Part shown: in pieces, positions 3,025 through 18,705 of the stretch
Layout of the letters: each line of letters begins with the position of its first letter
How positions within the stretch are numbered: position 1 is the first letter of the stretch
IMG/VR virus record: IMGVR_UViG_3300049846_003238
Location: 1 to 21,189 of that record
Source of the DNA: a virus
Length of the DNA: 21,189 nucleotides
Strand: one strand, 5' to 3'
Made by a program: the position numbers and the translations under genes
Notes under the pieces: model-generated
Told to the model about the DNA's origin: nothing
The model's database searches: none
The model's input: the letters and a program-made list of their open reading frames with translations, nothing else

Positions 3025-4236
3025 TCAAATATTAATTACACCCGGAAATCTATTTCCGGATTTTAGAGCTATCAACCTCACGTTTGTTATAGCAATATTT
3101 TCTGGAAACATGGATGTTTTCTTATAATTCTCAACAAAACGAATAGAATTATTGTTTATATATGACGCTTGTTCTTTTCTTGTATAATAATTAAAACTAT
3201 TTTCATTCCAGAAACTTACATGGGTTGGATCTTGCCAAGCACCTCTACCATCAGTCGACGGAACTTCGATAAAAGCCCAACCCCCATTAGATAATACTCT
3301 ATGTATTTCACTCATTATCTTAATAGGATCTTTGAATAGCTGAATAGAGTGACTGAGATTTATAACACCAACTGACGAATTGTCAAGCGGAATCTTCTCT
3401 ATATTTGTTAATACTTTTTCACATCCATTTTTTACATCTAGTCTGGGATTCAAATCTACTACTTTTAATTTGTTATTTTTCGCATCTTTAACAGCTAAAT
3501 CCCAAATGTATTTATCCCCTAATTCAACAGTCACTTGTTGAATTAAATCGCTTCTTTGAAGCCAGTTGTTGTCCCCTGTAATACGATAAATATACAAAAC
3601 TTCTGGAATGTGAACCATTTTTGTAGCTAAAAATGTTCTAATCATTAATTCATGATCGTCACAAACTGAATAATCTGGATTGTGACCCTTGAGAGATAAG
3701 TATAAAGTAGTTCTCCATGCCCGCACATGATCGGGCGCGTACCAAATATATTGCAAGCTATGACTTGTTGGAGCAAAAGTATTCATAGCATATAAGCTTT
3801 TGCCTTTCCAATTGAATTTAGAATATGTCCATCCAATACTTGGATTATAAGGTTGAAATGAGTCTTGATGGTGATAAACAGCGCTATTACTGTAAGCAAA
3901 TCCTACGGAAGGATCTTGAAATGCGGATACTAATTTCTCAAGGCAGTTTGGAGTAATCATGTCATCATGATCTACTTCGACTAAAATTTCTCCAAGCCCT
4001 AGCATAAAAGCATTTTTTTTGATTTCTCCTATAGATTGAGAAAAATTAGAAGCTCTGAAAATTTTAATACGAGCATCTCCGAATCGAATAATTGGAGGCA
4101 AGTCAACTTCCGAAGCTTCACCATTCAAATATATAACCCATTCCCAATTAGTGTAAGACTGATTTTTTATACAGTCGTACAGATCTAATAAAAAAGCATT
4201 TTGTAAATTGGTTGGAGTTATAATACTACATTTCAT
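3025..4236 (-). CDS. GT2 glycosyltransferase fused to a methyltransferase-like domain
   Basis: A 403-residue two-domain protein. Residues 1-230 form a GT-A glycosyltransferase: SIITPTN at 4-10, QSYTNWEWVIYLNGE at 26-40, metal-binding VDHDD at 88-92 and CDDHELMIR at 192-200. Residues about 255-365 match the C-terminal half of a class I SAM-dependent methyltransferase (Methyltransf_11 type): PLDNSSVGVINLSHSIQLF, then IHRVLSNGGWAFIEVPS and DGRGAWQDPTHVSFWNENS. The glycine-rich SAM-binding motif I normally expected near residue 260 is reduced to VVDLNPRLD, so methyl transfer may be lost or use an altered pocket. It overlaps the upstream Mom-like gene by 4 bases. It probably acts on a glycan; the substrate is unknown. 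Confidence 0.85.
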   Translation of the reverse strand: MKCSIITPTNLQNAFLLDLYDCIKNQSYTNWEWVIYLNGEASEVDLPPIIRFGDARIKIFRASNFSQSIGEIKKNAFMLGLGEILVEVDHDDMITPNCLEKLVSAFQDPSVGFAYSNSAVYHHQDSFQPYNPSIGWTYSKFNWKGKSLYAMNTFAPTSHSLQYIWYAPDHVRAWRTTLYLSLKGHNPDYSVCDDHELMIRTFLATKMVHIPEVLYIYRITGDNNWLQRSDLIQQVTVELGDKYIWDLAVKDAKNNKLKVVDLNPRLDVKNGCEKVLTNIEKIPLDNSSVGVINLSHSIQLFKDPIKIMSEIHRVLSNGGWAFIEVPSTDGRGAWQDPTHVSFWNENSFNYYTRKEQASYINNNSIRFVENYKKTSMFPENIAITNVRLIALKSGNRFPGVINI

Positions 4237-4877
4237 ATTTTATTATTTTTTGGACGCCAAGTGGATAAGTTTAACTTATTTAAAATATTTTTCTTGTCTT
4301 TTCTATTTGCATGAATAAAAAAATACCTTTTTTTACTAGATCTTTTTTCCTTATATAGTAAATCTCCGTATTTTTCCTTCATCTTCGATAACTTATTTTT
4401 TGAATGTTTAAATTCTCTAAAAAGTGTACTTTGATGTAAATGTTCTTTCCCCTTAACCTTCCAGTCAAAGTGATAGCTTTCGCTTTCGCCGCCATCTTGG
4501 AAATTAGATGCTTTATAAATAGTACCGATATGGTCAACAAATGTATCGGCGTAAGAAACAATTATTAAAGGCTGAGGAAGTAGTTTTATTGAATTAGATA
4601 TCAATATACTTGCTTCATTTTTTATATTATTTTTTAAAAAAAGCCTGTTTAATTCTATAACTATATTGGCATATTCTACTCCAGCCAAACTCTTTTTGAC
4701 AGCTGGAGAGGAAGGTGTCCCGTATGATACAGCTCCAACTAATTCATCTTTACAAAATAAACCAAACAAGAATGATATTCTAGGCCACTTATGTAAGTAA
4801 TGCCCTTTTAGAAAAAAATCTTTAGCGGCTTCTCTATCTATCGCTTTTACGCAATAATCTTCTTTTTTAGCTTCCAT
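4233..4877 (-). CDS. Mom-like DNA adenine modification protein (GNAT-like)
   Basis: A 214-residue protein matching the Mom family of phage Mu, whose members replace DNA adenine with a carbamoylmethyl-type modified adenine and so block many host restriction enzymes. Visible family hallmarks are GHYLHKWP at residues 25-32, FGLFCKDELVGAVSYG at 38-53, the IELNRLFL core at 74-81, and the signature SYADTFVDHIGTIYKASNF at 108-126. The C-terminal third is Lys-rich, suiting a DNA-binding protein. Its start overlaps the upstream conserved gene by 11 bases, and AGAAG lies upstream as a possible ribosome site. It is in the operon with the consensus sigma70 promoter, so early expression is likely. The family call is strong; the exact chemistry in this phage is inferred. 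Confidence 0.85.
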   Translation of the reverse strand: MEAKKEDYCVKAIDREAAKDFFLKGHYLHKWPRISFLFGLFCKDELVGAVSYGTPSSPAVKKSLAGVEYANIVIELNRLFLKNNIKNEASILISNSIKLLPQPLIIVSYADTFVDHIGTIYKASNFQDGGESESYHFDWKVKGKEHLHQSTLFREFKHSKNKLSKMKEKYGDLLYKEKRSSKKRYFFIHANRKDKKNILNKLNLSTWRPKNNKI

Positions 4878-12036: not shown

Positions 12037-12948
12037 TTATATTAAATTAAAGTCTTTTGCAAACTCTAGGTCTACATTACGTACATTCTCCTTTAACTGG
12101 AAAATTTTCTGAATAAGATTCATTGCGTGATTTCGTGAATCTGCGAATACAAACTGTACATTGTCGTAAGAGCTTAAAATAGATCTCATTACATAGAATA
12201 TGTATTGACTATTTACAGATTGTTTAAAATTTTTGTTTGGTTTCCAATTGTTAGCGTTGTGAAATGAATCTTCTATAACAACTACAATGTAATAGTCTAG
12301 ATCTTTAGCTCTATCCAACTCTCTTTTGAATCTATCTTTTCCTCCAGATAATGTTGAAACGAAATCAGAAAGACTTTTTCGTTCTACGAAAACTTCGCTA
12401 TATAATTCCCCAGCTGTAGAATAATCTCCACAACTAAGCTTCATAACCTTTGCATTTTCGAATGGTAATGGGTTTTGTTCCCTTGTATCTACGATGATTT
12501 CTGGTTCTGTATCTGAGAAAATAAGAGCCGAAGCATAGTTATACTTAAGCTTGAAAATCTTTTTGAGTTCCTCATTTGCTTTTTCAACTCCTCCGAATAT
12601 CGAAGAAATGCCATGCCACGAGGGAAGAAATAGAGTCTTTAACTCTAAATGAGACGGTATAAATTCAGTTCGTTTTTCAGAACATCTTTTTTGCAACTGC
12701 GAGACTATATATTGTTGGACTACTTCCGGTTCGTTATTAAAACACCATGAAGCTAAATTGCTTTTGTTATTAAAGTCTGTATTGAAATACTGATCGTAAT
12801 TTTTGAAGCCAATTAGACTTCCATCTAACAGGTCGTATCTAGGAAAATGACTGTGGTAGTACGATTCTACATCTTCATGTTTTTTACCTATGTGAGAATG
12901 TAAACTTTTTAACGTTTCAAAGGATTGTCCACACGCCTGACAAATCAT
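12037..12948 (-). CDS. ERCC4-type nuclease with N-terminal C2H2 zinc finger
   Basis: A 303-residue protein. Residues 3-24 form a C2H2 finger (C3, C6, H19, H24; CQACGQSF then HSHIGKKH). Residues 150-290 carry an ERCC4 (XPF/Mus81-like) nuclease core of the PD-(D/E)XK class: IIVDTREQNPLPF at 151-163, GDYS at 174-177, and VERKSLSDF at 188-196, with D154, E157, E189 and K191 as likely catalytic residues. XPF-family enzymes cut branched or flap DNA. Between the two lies an uncharacterised segment. It overlaps the upstream gene by 4 bases (ATGA) and is one base from the terminase, so it is co-expressed with packaging. Likely role: resolving branched replication intermediates before packaging; this is inference. 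Confidence 0.9.
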   Translation of the reverse strand: MICQACGQSFETLKSLHSHIGKKHEDVESYYHSHFPRYDLLDGSLIGFKNYDQYFNTDFNNKSNLASWCFNNEPEVVQQYIVSQLQKRCSEKRTEFIPSHLELKTLFLPSWHGISSIFGGVEKANEELKKIFKLKYNYASALIFSDTEPEIIVDTREQNPLPFENAKVMKLSCGDYSTAGELYSEVFVERKSLSDFVSTLSGGKDRFKRELDRAKDLDYYIVVVIEDSFHNANNWKPNKNFKQSVNSQYIFYVMRSILSSYDNVQFVFADSRNHAMNLIQKIFQLKENVRNVDLEFAKDFNLI

Positions 12949-14081
12949 AAATTAAACACTTCTTCTTTACCCAACCCAAAGACTTCGACAAATAGATCTG
13001 GGAAATTGTCCAGTTCTTCAATTCTGTCTTTCACCTTTACCTCTGCGGCTCTTGCAAGTATCATCAGTCGTTTCCTATCTTTTTCATCTTTAACCATTTC
13101 AATAAAATTGGTTAAGCTATTATTGGATTCAACTTGCTTTTCTAGTTTCTTAATTCTATCTCCGCTCAAGGAGCGGGTCATTTTTAAGATGCGATCCAAG
13201 CATTGATTATAAGCCGTTGTCTTATCTTTTAGAGCTTCTGTTAATGTGATAGTGAACTTTCTACCCTCGTCGTCATCGGAAGTAGACTCTCTAAGCCTGT
13301 CATTGAGACTGGATATATGCTCTCTAATTTCCAGAAGGTTAACGTATTCCAAAGCCAGTTGGATGTATAAGTTTGTTTCGTCTGGAATTAAGTCTGGCTT
13401 ATTATAGACAACTTTGACGAATTCCGTTTCAAAAACTTCTCTATGGCGTAAGTTTGTAAGGGCTGAAACAGTTTCTACAAAGCGAGGAGCTGCTAAGAAT
13501 TTCTTAACGGCTGCAATACTATCCTTTTTCTTTGCGTCTAATTTGTTAATGTCAAATTTTGCAGAAAAATCAGAGCGATTTATCAGATTGACGATCTGCA
13601 AATCTGTTTTAGGCGGGTTATACCTTGTTGTAACTTTAACATCTCTTTCCTCCTCTTTGCCTTGAGCGATACCCGCCGCCTGCAACAAGTACGAAATTGG
13701 CCTAATAGATTTAACTGGCGGCTGGTCTGGAAATAGAGTAGACGCTATTTCATGGGGTGTCATAGTAGCCCCGTTATCAAAGATAAAGTCCAGTTCCTCT
13801 GTTGTGTAATTTGGCCATTCACCTCCACGCCACAACTTTTGCATGAACTTACGAACGTTCTTAAACTGTTCGGACTGTTCTATAAGTTGAGGGTCTCCAA
13901 ATGCTTCTTGAGTAAGAGTAAGTAGGTGACTCTCTTTAGAGTTAATCTTACTCTCTAAAAAGATTTGTTGATCAAAATTTAAATGATATAATTGGTAATT
14001 GATAAGTCTATCTGCAACATTTTTGCATTTAGATTCGTCAGTTACGTTTAATTTTTCTACTAATAGCTCTCTAGTATTCAT
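12945..14081 (-). CDS. Possible small terminase subunit
   Basis: A 378-residue protein from the ATG at 14081; the longer frame needs a TTG at 14093. No catalytic motif is visible. The centre (about residues 92-136 from this ATG) holds a probable helix-turn-helix: YTTEELDFIFDNGATMTPHE, then IASTLFPDQPPVKSIRPISY. The C-terminal half is helical and charged, with coiled-coil character around 240-350. A DNA-binding helix-turn-helix plus an oligomerising helical region, encoded two genes upstream of terL in the same operon, fits a small terminase, which recognises phage DNA and regulates the motor. It overlaps the sigma-like gene by 11 bases. The function is a context-based guess; the gene itself is clear. 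Confidence 0.6.
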   Translation of the reverse strand: MNTRELLVEKLNVTDESKCKNVADRLINYQLYHLNFDQQIFLESKINSKESHLLTLTQEAFGDPQLIEQSEQFKNVRKFMQKLWRGGEWPNYTTEELDFIFDNGATMTPHEIASTLFPDQPPVKSIRPISYLLQAAGIAQGKEEERDVKVTTRYNPPKTDLQIVNLINRSDFSAKFDINKLDAKKKDSIAAVKKFLAAPRFVETVSALTNLRHREVFETEFVKVVYNKPDLIPDETNLYIQLALEYVNLLEIREHISSLNDRLRESTSDDDEGRKFTITLTEALKDKTTAYNQCLDRILKMTRSLSGDRIKKLEKQVESNNSLTNFIEMVKDEKDRKRLMILARAAEVKVKDRIEELDNFPDLFVEVFGLGKEEVFNL

Positions 14082-14751
14082 GTTCTGGATCAAATTCCGA
14101 TATTTTTTTCTTAGCTATAGTTTGTAAATTTTTACGGATTGTTATTAATTGTCGTTTTGTAATCCCTTTCCCGTTAGTTTTTTTCAAGAATTCAATAATT
14201 TGTTCGTCAGTCCAATTATTTATATAAATTAATTTATAAAAATTCTGCATTTTAGCATTTAGAAATTGACATATAAAAATATGAAACTTAGGAATGCTAA
14301 CTTCTAATTTAATAGAAGAAGATGGGTCGAAAGAATCCTTTTGTTCTAAAAAGGTAGTCGTATCTATAGAAATTGGAGTTTTTAATAAAAATTTATTTCT
14401 TTTCTTTTTAGACCATTTTTTAAAAGATGGGCATTGTCCGCATTTTATACCACTAGAAGTATAACCGCAAAACTCGCCACCTCTATCAAATGGGCAGGAG
14501 GCGCATGGAGGCGCATCTCTAGAATATCTATTTCTTACGGTATTCTTTATCTGATTTATTATTATTCTATTACACCAATGTTCAAACGGGCGGCTTTGAT
14601 CCCATTGATTCCATTTTTTAAATATGTGTACTCTAATAGTCTGGGCTAAATCTTCAAACCCAAACCCTCCTATATCAGATAAATGCCACCTACTTCTATT
14701 TTTTTGTATTAATTCATTGATAGAATCAATCTTATCTTCAAAGTTAAGCAT
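14071..14751 (-). CDS. Sigma-70 family-like RNA polymerase factor with cysteine cluster
   Basis: A 226-residue protein. Residues 31-77 match sigma region 2: GFEDLAQTIRVHIFKKW, then RPFEHWCNRIIINQIKNTVR, the helix that binds the core clamp and the -10 element. Residues 83-107 carry five cysteines (C83, C86, C95, C104, C107), probably a zinc or metal site placed where the linker would be. Residues 178-215 (WTDEQIIEFL...ITKRQLITIRKNL) resemble a region 4 helix-turn-helix. Small phage sigma factors of this kind, such as the late factor of T4, redirect host polymerase to late genes. It overlaps the zinc-ribbon gene upstream by 8 bases. The sigma call is good; metal binding is inferred. Confidence 0.75.
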   Translation of the reverse strand: MLNFEDKIDSINELIQKNRSRWHLSDIGGFGFEDLAQTIRVHIFKKWNQWDQSRPFEHWCNRIIINQIKNTVRNRYSRDAPPCASCPFDRGGEFCGYTSSGIKCGQCPSFKKWSKKKRNKFLLKTPISIDTTTFLEQKDSFDPSSSIKLEVSIPKFHIFICQFLNAKMQNFYKLIYINNWTDEQIIEFLKKTNGKGITKRQLITIRKNLQTIAKKKISEFDPEHEY

Positions 14752-16373: not shown

Positions 16374-16392
16374 CAACTATTTAAATATACAC
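16374..16392 (-). promoter_or_regulatory. GTGTAT box upstream of beta-helix gene
   Basis: On the minus strand GTGTATATTTAAATAGTTG lies 9 bases upstream of the ATG at 16364. Except for a 4-base insertion it is a mirror copy of the box facing the PhoH-like gene at 16403-16417. It may be a divergent promoter or a regulator site. Confidence 0.4.
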
Positions 16393-16402
16393 TCATTTTT
16401 TG

Positions 16403-16417
16403 GTGTATAAATAGTTG
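16403..16417 (+). promoter_or_regulatory. GTGTAT/TATAAATA box upstream of phoH-like gene
   Basis: GTGTATAAATAGTTG ends one base before the ATG at 16419. It includes TATAAATA, the consensus of T4 late promoters. If it is used as a -10 element, transcription would start at or within a base or two of the ATG, giving a leaderless message. Confidence 0.4.
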
Positions 16418-16418
16418 C

Positions 16419-17186
16419 ATGGCAAATAAACACAAACCTGTGTCGGATTTAGCTTACAAAAAAGCTAAAAGGAGTCAAAAATCAAATCTTGATTTTAGCT
16501 TAGATATTCAAATTAGGGAAGATTTAACAGAGACTCAAAAGCAAATTATAGAAGCTGCCTTAGATAAAAAAACGCGATGTATTGTTATTGACGGTTCGGC
16601 TGGTACAGGAAAAAGCTGGACTACTATTTTATCAGCTTTATTGTTATTAAATTCAAATGCTGTAAAGGAAATAGTTTACTTGCGATCCTTAGTTCAGTCA
16701 AAAGATGGTCAAACTGGATTTTTAAAAGGTGATTTAGATGAAAAAACCTTTTATTACAATGAGGCTTTAAATCAAACTTTATCTGAGCTTATTGATACAG
16801 CTGAGATCAAAAGGTTGCATGATACAGATAAAATAAAGTGTTATCCAACTTCCATGTTGAGATCATACAATTTTCATGATGCAGCTGTGATTGCAGAGGA
16901 ATGTCAAACTATGACATTTGACTCTATTTTTACAATCGCTACGCGCTTGGGTCCATATAGCAAGCTGTTCGTAATTGGAGATACAGTATATCAAAACGAT
17001 CTTGGAAAATCGTCTGGATTTAAGCAATTTGTTGATATTTTTTGCTCTGATCCTGAAGCTTACGATGCCGGATTTCGTTGTTTTAAACTAACTAGCTCTC
17101 AAATTGTACGGAGCGAATTTGTAAAATTTATTGTGCAAAAAGTAGAATCTTTCCAAAAACAAAATGGAAGTTCACTGATCAATTAA
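16419..17186 (+). CDS. PhoH-like ATPase
   Basis: A 255-residue P-loop protein of the PhoH family. Q-motif-like TETQKQIIEAAL is at 37-48, Walker A GSAGTGKS at 59-66, the PhoH-typical RSLVQ...TGFLKGD at 89-105, Walker B AVIAEE at 156-161, IGDTVYQND near 204-212 and SSQIVRSEFV near 226-235. PhoH-like proteins are common in phages and resemble the ATPase half of superfamily 1 helicases; their role in infection is not settled. It is the first plus-strand gene and its 3' end overlaps the convergent intein-like gene by 15 bases. No intein is present in it. Confidence 0.9.
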   Translation: MANKHKPVSDLAYKKAKRSQKSNLDFSLDIQIREDLTETQKQIIEAALDKKTRCIVIDGSAGTGKSWTTILSALLLLNSNAVKEIVYLRSLVQSKDGQTGFLKGDLDEKTFYYNEALNQTLSELIDTAEIKRLHDTDKIKCYPTSMLRSYNFHDAAVIAEECQTMTFDSIFTIATRLGPYSKLFVIGDTVYQNDLGKSSGFKQFVDIFCSDPEAYDAGFRCFKLTSSQIVRSEFVKFIVQKVESFQKQNGSSLIN

Positions 17187-18056
17187 TTCTACCCAACTAT
17201 CTAGTTTTACAGAATTTACCGGAATATTAACGCAGGGTCTTTTCCCTACGTAAGTAATATGTTCTATGCAGCGGACTCTTGGTTTTTTACTTGGTTTAAA
17301 AGTATTAGCTTTAAGTAGAAAAGGATTAAAACTACTATCGAAAGAAATGCTTACGATATAGTAAGGAGCTTTTCCTTCCTTTACTCTAATTTTAGCGAAT
17401 CCGTGTAAAGATTTTACTAGAAAAGAAATATCTTTAGCAAGCTGTTCTGAACTACATTCGAAAGTAGTTTCCCCTCTATAACATTTGCCAAAAATATCCA
17501 TGCACCCCCTGAGTAGAAGTTCTCTGTCTTCTTTGCGGGTGAATAAAAACTCGTCTGGAATTTGTCTAAGCTTTAAAGACGCAAACTGTTTATGTTTTTT
17601 TACATCTAATCTTAATAGATTTGGACTATCTTCATCGGGAGCTAACTCAAAATAATCACATGACATTTCGCGCAGACGAAGCGAATAATACTCCTTTGGA
17701 ATTTTTTTTAAGTCAACTTTTGTAATTTTTTTAGTTTGAAGAGTATTATTTCTAACAGGAGTACAAAAAGCTAATCCCATAATATACGGGTCAACTATTT
17801 CTGATACAAAATCTATTGTTGGATATTTTAGTTTGTATTTAGAGCGAGTTCCATAAAAACAACTTTCTTCGTTCTTTTCAATTTTTTTAACTCTATCTTC
17901 TAACTGAATAAAAGTTCCTTGAGGGACTAAAATTGACGTTCCATCGTTAATAGTTAAAGAAAAACAGTCAGTTGATACAATTTTGCCTTGAGATAAATCT
18001 ATGGCGTTAATTGGCCCACTTTCTCTTAAAATGGTGTTATAAGTATACAACAACAT
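17172..18056 (-). CDS. Free-standing intein-like (Hint/LAGLIDADG-derived) protein with degraded active sites
   Basis: A 294-residue protein whose C-terminal half closely follows the homing-endonuclease part and tail of phage inteins: IPDEFLFTRKEDRELLLRG at 166-184, SSEQLAKDISFLVKSLHGFA at 202-221, YYIVSISF...NPFLLKA near 232-250, and HITYVGKRPCVNIPVNS near 266-282, which corresponds to the end of an intein. The two LAGLIDADG helices would be PYIMGLAFCTP (90-100) and LLRGCMDIFGKC (181-192). Each lacks the acidic residue before the final Gly that binds metal, so cleavage is probably lost. There is no N-terminal Cys and no terminal HN-C junction, and it stands alone, so it does not splice a host protein. 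It sits opposite in strand between plus-strand genes. Confidence 0.8.
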   Translation of the reverse strand: MLLYTYNTILRESGPINAIDLSQGKIVSTDCFSLTINDGTSILVPQGTFIQLEDRVKKIEKNEESCFYGTRSKYKLKYPTIDFVSEIVDPYIMGLAFCTPVRNNTLQTKKITKVDLKKIPKEYYSLRLREMSCDYFELAPDEDSPNLLRLDVKKHKQFASLKLRQIPDEFLFTRKEDRELLLRGCMDIFGKCYRGETTFECSSEQLAKDISFLVKSLHGFAKIRVKEGKAPYYIVSISFDSSFNPFLLKANTFKPSKKPRVRCIEHITYVGKRPCVNIPVNSVKLDSWVELIDQ

Positions 18057-18057
18057 A

Positions 18058-18075
18058 TTGTATATACATATACAA
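18058..18075. promoter_or_regulatory. 18-bp near-perfect palindrome next to intein-like gene start
   Basis: TTGTATATACATATACAA has two 8-base arms (18058-18065 and 18068-18075) around a central AC. It lies one base from the ATG of the minus-strand intein-like gene and in the divergent gap with the PAS gene. It is a good candidate operator or dimeric regulator site, though AT-rich alternation raises the chance background. Confidence 0.35.
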
Positions 18076-18106
18076 CACTTCTTTGTTTCAAAAACTTATC
18101 GAAAAA

Positions 18107-18120
18107 GTGTATTATAAAGT
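18107..18120 (+). promoter_or_regulatory. GTGTAT box upstream of PAS gene
   Basis: GTGTATTATAAAGT directly abuts the ATG at 18121 and follows a run of A. It belongs to the recurrent box set of this window. There is no separate ribosome-binding sequence between it and the ATG. Confidence 0.4.
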
Positions 18121-18705
18121 ATGCTCTCTGTAATTCAAGATTTTTTTCAGCAGATGGTGCTTAGCGAAAAGATAATATCTATTGTATTGGCTTTTTTTTC
18201 AATTCTTGCAGTTGGAAGAAAAGTAATATCTTTTTTGTGGAAACATATTTCAGAAACTAATGCTTCAGTGAAAAAATTTTTAAATTTAATTCCTAAATTA
18301 GAAAAATTTACCAATTCTTGCGATATAGAAACAATGGTTGGTATTTTAAATAGATTGGAAAACGGTCTATTTCATACGAATCAGAAGATCCAATCTATAA
18401 TATTTAGTATGGGATTGGCATCATTCGAAACAGATAGGACTGGTAAGTATACATTTGTCAGCAAGCAGTGGATTGATTTAACAGGTCTTTCTATTAACGA
18501 GGCGACTGGAAATGGATGGATAAACGCTGTTCAAGAAGATTTTAGGAAAGAGGTTTTTTCCGAATGGGAGTCGTGTTTATTACAAAATCGTGAATTTAGA
18601 ATGACTACTAAATTCGAAAAGTTAGATAGAGAGATATCTATAGTTGCTTGGCCAATTAGAAATTTAGACGGTTCGATAGAAAAATTTTTCGGTATACTAA
18701 TTTAA
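18121..18705 (+). CDS. Membrane-anchored PAS-domain protein
   Basis: A 194-residue protein. One transmembrane helix is predicted near residues 16-36 (EKIISIVLAFFSILAVGRKV), followed by a helical linker (about 45-95) and a PAS domain at 97-194: ETDRTGKYTFVSKQWIDLTG, then INEATGNGWINAVQEDF, and an ending WPIRNLDGSIEKFFGILI. PAS domains sense small ligands, redox state or bind haem or flavin. There is no kinase, cyclase or output domain. It precedes the holin by 28 bases and leads the plus-strand lysis cassette, so it may sense the state of the cell and tune lysis. The domain call is strong; the role is inference. N-terminal orientation cannot be settled. Confidence 0.85.
   Translation: MLSVIQDFFQQMVLSEKIISIVLAFFSILAVGRKVISFLWKHISETNASVKKFLNLIPKLEKFTNSCDIETMVGILNRLENGLFHTNQKIQSIIFSMGLASFETDRTGKYTFVSKQWIDLTGLSINEATGNGWINAVQEDFRKEVFSEWESCLLQNREFRMTTKFEKLDREISIVAWPIRNLDGSIEKFFGILI

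Follow-up and report, generated by a model that had tools for sequence, protein, structure and literature searches.

The locus described here raises the question of what an intein-like gene does when it has neither a host protein nor the residues for catalysis. An intein is a selfish element that splices protein and cuts DNA, and the usual expectation is that inteins are lost in the end or shrink to splicing-only forms. In a 21,189-base virus record, called the window below, a preliminary description had noted an intein relative in an independent gene with its own start and stop and no splice junction. We name the protein of this open reading frame (17172-18056, minus strand) HLP. The gene and its surroundings are composed as follows.

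16419..17186, plus strand: gene for a PhoH-like P-loop ATPase, intein-free (Pfam PhoH, 8e-36).
17172..18056, minus strand: HLP, a free-standing and, as predicted from sequence, catalytically dead Hint plus double-LAGLIDADG protein of 294 aa (open reading frame, intein profile match, model, orthologues).
18057..18120, no strand: 64-bp intergenic region between the divergent HLP and PAS genes, a candidate control region (conserved blocks).
18121..18705, plus strand: gene for a PAS-domain protein, the first of a lysis-type gene row (Pfam PAS, 1.1e-5).

The independence of the gene was confirmed. The reading frame begins with ATG and runs for 294 codons with no internal stop to a stop codon at 17172-17174, and an in-frame stop lies 13 codons upstream of the ATG. 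Exteins are absent, as the gene has its own ATG near the start of the Hint part and its stop codon at the Hint end.

phoH and HLP are convergent and overlap by 15 bp. The row that starts with the PAS gene continues with holin-like, lipoprotein and peptidoglycan-binding lysin-like genes, of which the first two were judged from sequence by eye. In a 49.9-kb relative, HLP lies at a divergent boundary between a lysis/capsid block and a terminase/portal block; from this relative, conclusions were drawn on the left part, and the right part, which looks unlike the left, was set aside. Beyond about 28 kb, the genes of this 49,880-base record (G003; L132-L134) differ in style and include repeated short ORFs, and this part may be a different replicon joined in assembly. 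Elsewhere, the window encodes a Mom-like DNA modification protein (4233-4877, minus strand; Pfam Mom, E 1.7e-33), an ERCC4-type nuclease that adjoins TerL and has a weak C2H2-finger match at its N-terminus (12037-12948, minus strand), and a sigma-70 region-2-like protein (14071-14751).

Searched alone, the window HLP gave nothing significant against Pfam, NCBIfam and PDB sequences, and its sole match in a single-sequence search was PHROG 36964 (terminase; E 2e-4). LAGLIDADG_3 was matched by all five orthologues at E values up to 1 (best 0.0015), with the window copy unmatched. A tblastn search of HLP against phage records gave E values down to 3e-11 in genes annotated as helicase, terminase, PhoH or hypothetical; the outcome was the same with an HLP orthologue as the query, and the matches fell on the inteins within phage helicase, TerL and PhoH genes. 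When HLP was aligned with inteins cut from seven translated host genes, the alignment ran from block A to block G, and the motifs common to HLP and the seven inteins include RFIPDEYL, LLRGxMDxxG, FxxSSxQLAKDxxFLVKS and PSKxPRxRxI. A profile of six HLPs aligned with a profile of 20 embedded inteins, containing no HLP sequences, at 99.9% probability (E 4.7e-36) over 269 columns. The preliminary description had held that the C-terminal half follows inteins; this match is real, but the resemblance is not confined to that half, as residues 7-60 align with Hint blocks A and B and are modelled as Hint strands. By these comparisons, HLP is homologous to phage inteins with Hint and double-LAGLIDADG parts over nearly its full length, and its parts are assigned as follows.

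17877..18056, minus strand: residues 1-60, Hint N-terminal part, blocks A and B, lacking the first-position nucleophile and the block-B His (intein alignment).
17745..17792, minus strand: residues 89-104, first LAGLIDADG helix (block C) and turn (alignment, model).
17487..17534, minus strand: residues 175-190, second LAGLIDADG helix (block E), LLRGCMDIFG (alignment, model).
17319..17486, minus strand: residues 191-246, strands and helix of the second LAGLIDADG repeat (conservation).
17175..17270, minus strand: residues 263-294, Hint C-terminal part, blocks F and G, lacking the terminal His-Asn and a C-extein (alignment).

An AlphaFold model from the six HLPs alone was poor (pLDDT 52); its top PDB matches were the TliVMA intein (1.7e-6) and I-DmoI, and WhiA (3hyj) stood lower in the list at E 4e-3. 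With an alignment of 55 rows, combining HLPs and viral-contig inteins, pLDDT rose to 90.4 and pTM to 0.90. Because this model leans on the intein rows, it tells of a good fit of the HLP sequence to the fold and is not independent proof of it. The best PDB matches of this model were TliVMA (4e-11), PI-SceI (TM-score 0.66 by query length) and PhoVMA (1.4e-7), which span both the Hint and the endonuclease parts, and a Foldseek match to I-DmoI was also obtained. The model contains two LAGLIDADG helices, at residues 90-98 and 175-189, with strands between them. The fold of HLP is predicted to be Hint plus double LAGLIDADG, and the structural match on which the preliminary assignment depended is strong.

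Protein splicing by inteins involves a first-position nucleophile (or an Ala/Pro variant), the block-B His and a terminal His-Asn, followed by Cys, Ser or Thr. These signature residues and the two LAGLIDADG acids were compared with those of 75 non-redundant intein relatives. All 73 inteins that are ungapped at the block-B His carry this residue, while HLPs have T, I or V there; the C-terminal His (71/72 inteins) and Asn (72/72) are both absent from HLPs. At the position of the block-E acid, 74 of 75 inteins have D, whereas the window HLP has F189 (17490-17492, motif MDIFG) and all five orthologues have C. For the block-C acid, 68 of 74 inteins have D, one has E and five have N. Block C is the single place in HLP where the alignment is ambiguous: an ungapped count from the helix glycine puts the acid position at T99 (17760-17762; L in the orthologues) and MAFFT, with a 4-residue gap, puts it at N103, both non-acidic. 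The F/C and T/L variation at these positions argues against an unusual active site.

All six complete HLPs lack the first-position nucleophile, the block-B His, both acids and the terminal His-Asn. The absence of an N-terminal Cys and the loss of both LAGLIDADG acids, which the preliminary description had reported, therefore hold throughout the complete family members, and the block-B His and terminal His-Asn extend the list of losses. With no splicing or cutting residues left, HLP is predicted to be catalytically dead. Its predicted fold and the order of its blocks agree almost throughout with those of the double-LAGLIDADG phage inteins that occupy Walker A sites in PhoH, TerL and helicases; unlike them, HLP is extein-free and lacks all of the residues named above. 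Judged on its sequence, HLP is derived from inteins but is not one itself, being neither embedded between exteins nor equipped with splicing residues.

Is the gene kept, or is it decaying? Six records of related phages were found through PhoH, which is 69-70% identical. Five of them carry a complete HLP at the same site, 44-47% identical to the window copy, and the sixth carries the last 29 HLP residues only, cut by the contig end; HLP adjoins phoH in all six records that cover the site. All of the relatives are metagenomic fragments, and a host search with HLP and TerL against genome contigs gave no match. Pairwise dN/dS was 0.03-0.08 among four close orthologues and 0.09-0.12 against L005; this range of 0.03-0.12 was computed among the five orthologues. 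Pairs with the window copy are near synonymous saturation. Third positions hold most of the HLP changes (66/81 in L002/L006), and the neighboring phoH, fiber and PAS genes have dN/dS similar to that of HLP. The most conserved part of the protein is the second LAGLIDADG repeat (166-245), with 56% invariant columns versus 24-41% elsewhere, and E196 and E200 in its strand are invariant across the family. Between L005 and L002, DNA identity is about 72% for both HLP and PAS and 92% for phoH, a difference that suggests exchange of the HLP/PAS side as one block.

These substitution patterns show that HLP is retained by strong purifying selection in one phage group, and the earlier view of a catalytically dead domain kept as an open gene stands across five complete orthologues. 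An intein or endonuclease gene that broke recently and is decaying, or a chance resemblance, could also account for the complete loss of catalytic residues. However, lineages with just 46% identity have the same losses, every copy is open, dN/dS lies within the range given above and the homology is far from chance; relatives with intact acids, which would point to recent decay of the window copy, were not among the five complete orthologues. We find decay or chance hardly credible, and the sequences already contradict it.

Two known systems show part of the same pattern. The PhoVMA intein of Pyrococcus horikoshii has a LAGLIDADG part that has no active-site acids and keeps its fold (PMC8966425), but PhoVMA is still embedded in its host protein and HLP is not. 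The yeast HO and WHO proteins are free-standing intein derivatives without exteins or splicing, and WHO genes adjoin their target gene (PMC7282813). HLP is likewise a free-standing, extein-free, intein-like gene; however, HO and WHO have kept nuclease activity and carry C-terminal zinc fingers (PMC7282813), whereas HLP has neither the conserved nuclease acids nor the zinc fingers. The position of HLP beside phoH recalls that of WHO beside FBA1. HLP might therefore be read as a WHO-like homing element beside its target phoH, with a nuclease that has since died and a present role that is secondary or still unselected for homing. Its location directly downstream of and opposite to phoH would fit, as WHO genes lie downstream of FBA1 and some are oppositely oriented (PMC7282813). 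We consider this origin very doubtful, since the acidic residues are absent from every HLP, no remnants of phoH were seen next to the gene, and for a gene to be conserved so long with no nuclease, another selected role is needed.

A pattern scan of viral contigs based on a mixed alignment yielded 213 confirmed relatives. Among the best 80 of the 213, four are known HLPs and none is a further free-standing copy, the scan patterns favoring good matches; a second scan of viral contigs with an HLP-specific segment returned the known five only. The other 76 of the best 80 all lie inside much longer reading frames, and nearly all are recognisable inteins (L063, L065 and L090 are among the less clear matches). 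Their catalytic residues are mostly intact, and nearly all end in His-Asn followed by Thr, Ser or another extein residue. Most of the 76 directly follow the Walker A lysine (GK^T/S), several of them in PhoH-like or TerL genes. In a tree, the HLPs group together in a single, fully supported clade whose stem is 1.03 changes per site long, and the placement among PhoH, TerL and helicase inteins did not resolve a sister group.

The TerL gene of a distant relative phage (L131, 8435-11653, plus strand) has an apparent intein at the Walker A site. It begins after GRGVSK with TLTYNASS... and ends with FINHN before SWTVALF, so that Thr is the apparent first residue. Thr is unusual as the first residue of an intein. 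This intein was ruled out as the direct source of HLP, since its blastp similarity to HLP is not significant.

The site preference of the embedded relatives raises a further explanation, in which HLP still recognises the Walker A codons of phoH and terL and shields these genes from inteins. Both phoH and terL are intein-free in the window, and the distant relative has a TerL intein at precisely such a site. On the other hand, the Walker A codons of phoH and terL show no excess of synonymous conservation in these phages, and the lack of significant similarity between HLP and the L131 intein also weighs against a guard, which we regard as unlikely. If it were true, a recognition module of the parasite itself would protect the virus from that parasite.

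We favor, at about an even chance, the explanation that HLP is a domesticated, non-cleaving intein, most likely a monomeric, sequence-specific DNA-binding protein and probably a regulator near the divergent junction. Its ancestor would have been a Hint plus double-LAGLIDADG endonuclease intein like those that today sit mostly at the Walker A GK^T/S of phage P-loop proteins, and this embedded intein would have become a stand-alone gene beside phoH. The stand-alone form would then have lost all splicing and cleavage residues, a loss that is seen in the alignments together with the homology, and kept the whole predicted fold. The LAGLIDADG platform may bind DNA without cutting, and HLP would act as a regulator at or near the divergent junction between its own gene and the lysis/capsid genes. 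HLP has a basic net charge as inteins do (pI about 9), and its place at a divergent boundary of gene blocks suits a regulator. Homology, charge and location make DNA binding the most likely job.

WhiA (DUF199) is a regulator encoded by its own gene, and its degenerate LAGLIDADG domain is under selection and has no metal-binding residues; this dead domain alone gives no footprint, and DNA binding is mainly by an added HTH (PMC3781837). HLP also has a degenerate LAGLIDADG domain encoded as its own gene. In contrast to WhiA, it is a phage protein in which Hint parts are present and the HTH is absent: it ends with Hint strands, and neither its sequence nor its model contains an added HTH or zinc-finger domain. 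By analogy, HLP would work like WhiA if DNA binding is correctly assigned, yet it is not a WhiA. The lack of a footprint of the WhiA domain alone and the two invariant acidic residues of HLP temper the DNA-binding claim, and the invariance of E196 and E200 does not favor DNA contact at the second-repeat strand.

Because of both points, the main rival is a protein-binding or structural role, in which the dead fold would serve as a scaffold or inhibitor of a phage or host protein and DNA binding would be gone. Such a role would agree with the loss of every catalytic residue under continued constraint on the whole fold, the Hint part among it, and with the invariance of acidic residues on a strand expected to face DNA; the dead domain of WhiA may itself act by protein contact (PMC3781837). 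However, the charge of HLP is basic, like that of DNA-binding inteins, and no partner gene is suggested beyond the neighbors. We regard a protein-binding role as possible, and hold it only tentatively.

If HLP is a DNA-binding regulator, the HLP-PAS intergenic region would be a candidate place for its target. This region has conserved blocks, TTTGTTTC and AGTGTA, in six phages; a search for a TTTGTTTC...AGTGTA regulon in the 49.9-kb relative found the whole block once. The palindrome TTGTATATACATATACAA (18058-18075), upstream of the HLP start, was rejected as an operator: it is AT-rich, it is not kept in the HLP orthologues, and 13% of 64-bp shuffles equal it. These searches brought no DNA target of HLP to light, which counts against the regulator reading. 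The window has no Rfam match, neither to a group I intron nor to another known RNA on which a LAGLIDADG maturase could act.

A GTGTA-type motif (GTGTATA or GTGTAWWA) was observed in the window at 16403(+), 18107(+), 18708(+), 16392(-) and 10102(-), 14-28 nt and often 14-16 nt upstream of the phoH, PAS, holin-like, fiber and portal starts. Several genes of the 49.9-kb relative (L132/L133) have the same upstream motif. It is a candidate promoter element of these phages, one that would give a very short leader. In the phoH-fiber intergenic region (16386-16409), the motif forms an inverted pair, TATACAC-N10-GTGTATA, with arms that are conserved in related phages and a variable spacer. This pair is a putative operator or, alternatively, two back-to-back promoter elements.

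In the open-access literature, intein repurposing took the form of conditional splicing or of active free-standing endonucleases (PMC7282813 for WHO), and a dead free-standing protein was not found. It is probable that HLP has been co-opted for a different job, DNA binding for example. The whole intein fold has been selectively kept in HLP after the loss of the splicing and cutting residues and of the host protein, which makes HLP a compact viral counterpart to WhiA and HO. HLP would allow a direct test of what an intein fold is capable of once selection for both splicing and homing has gone.
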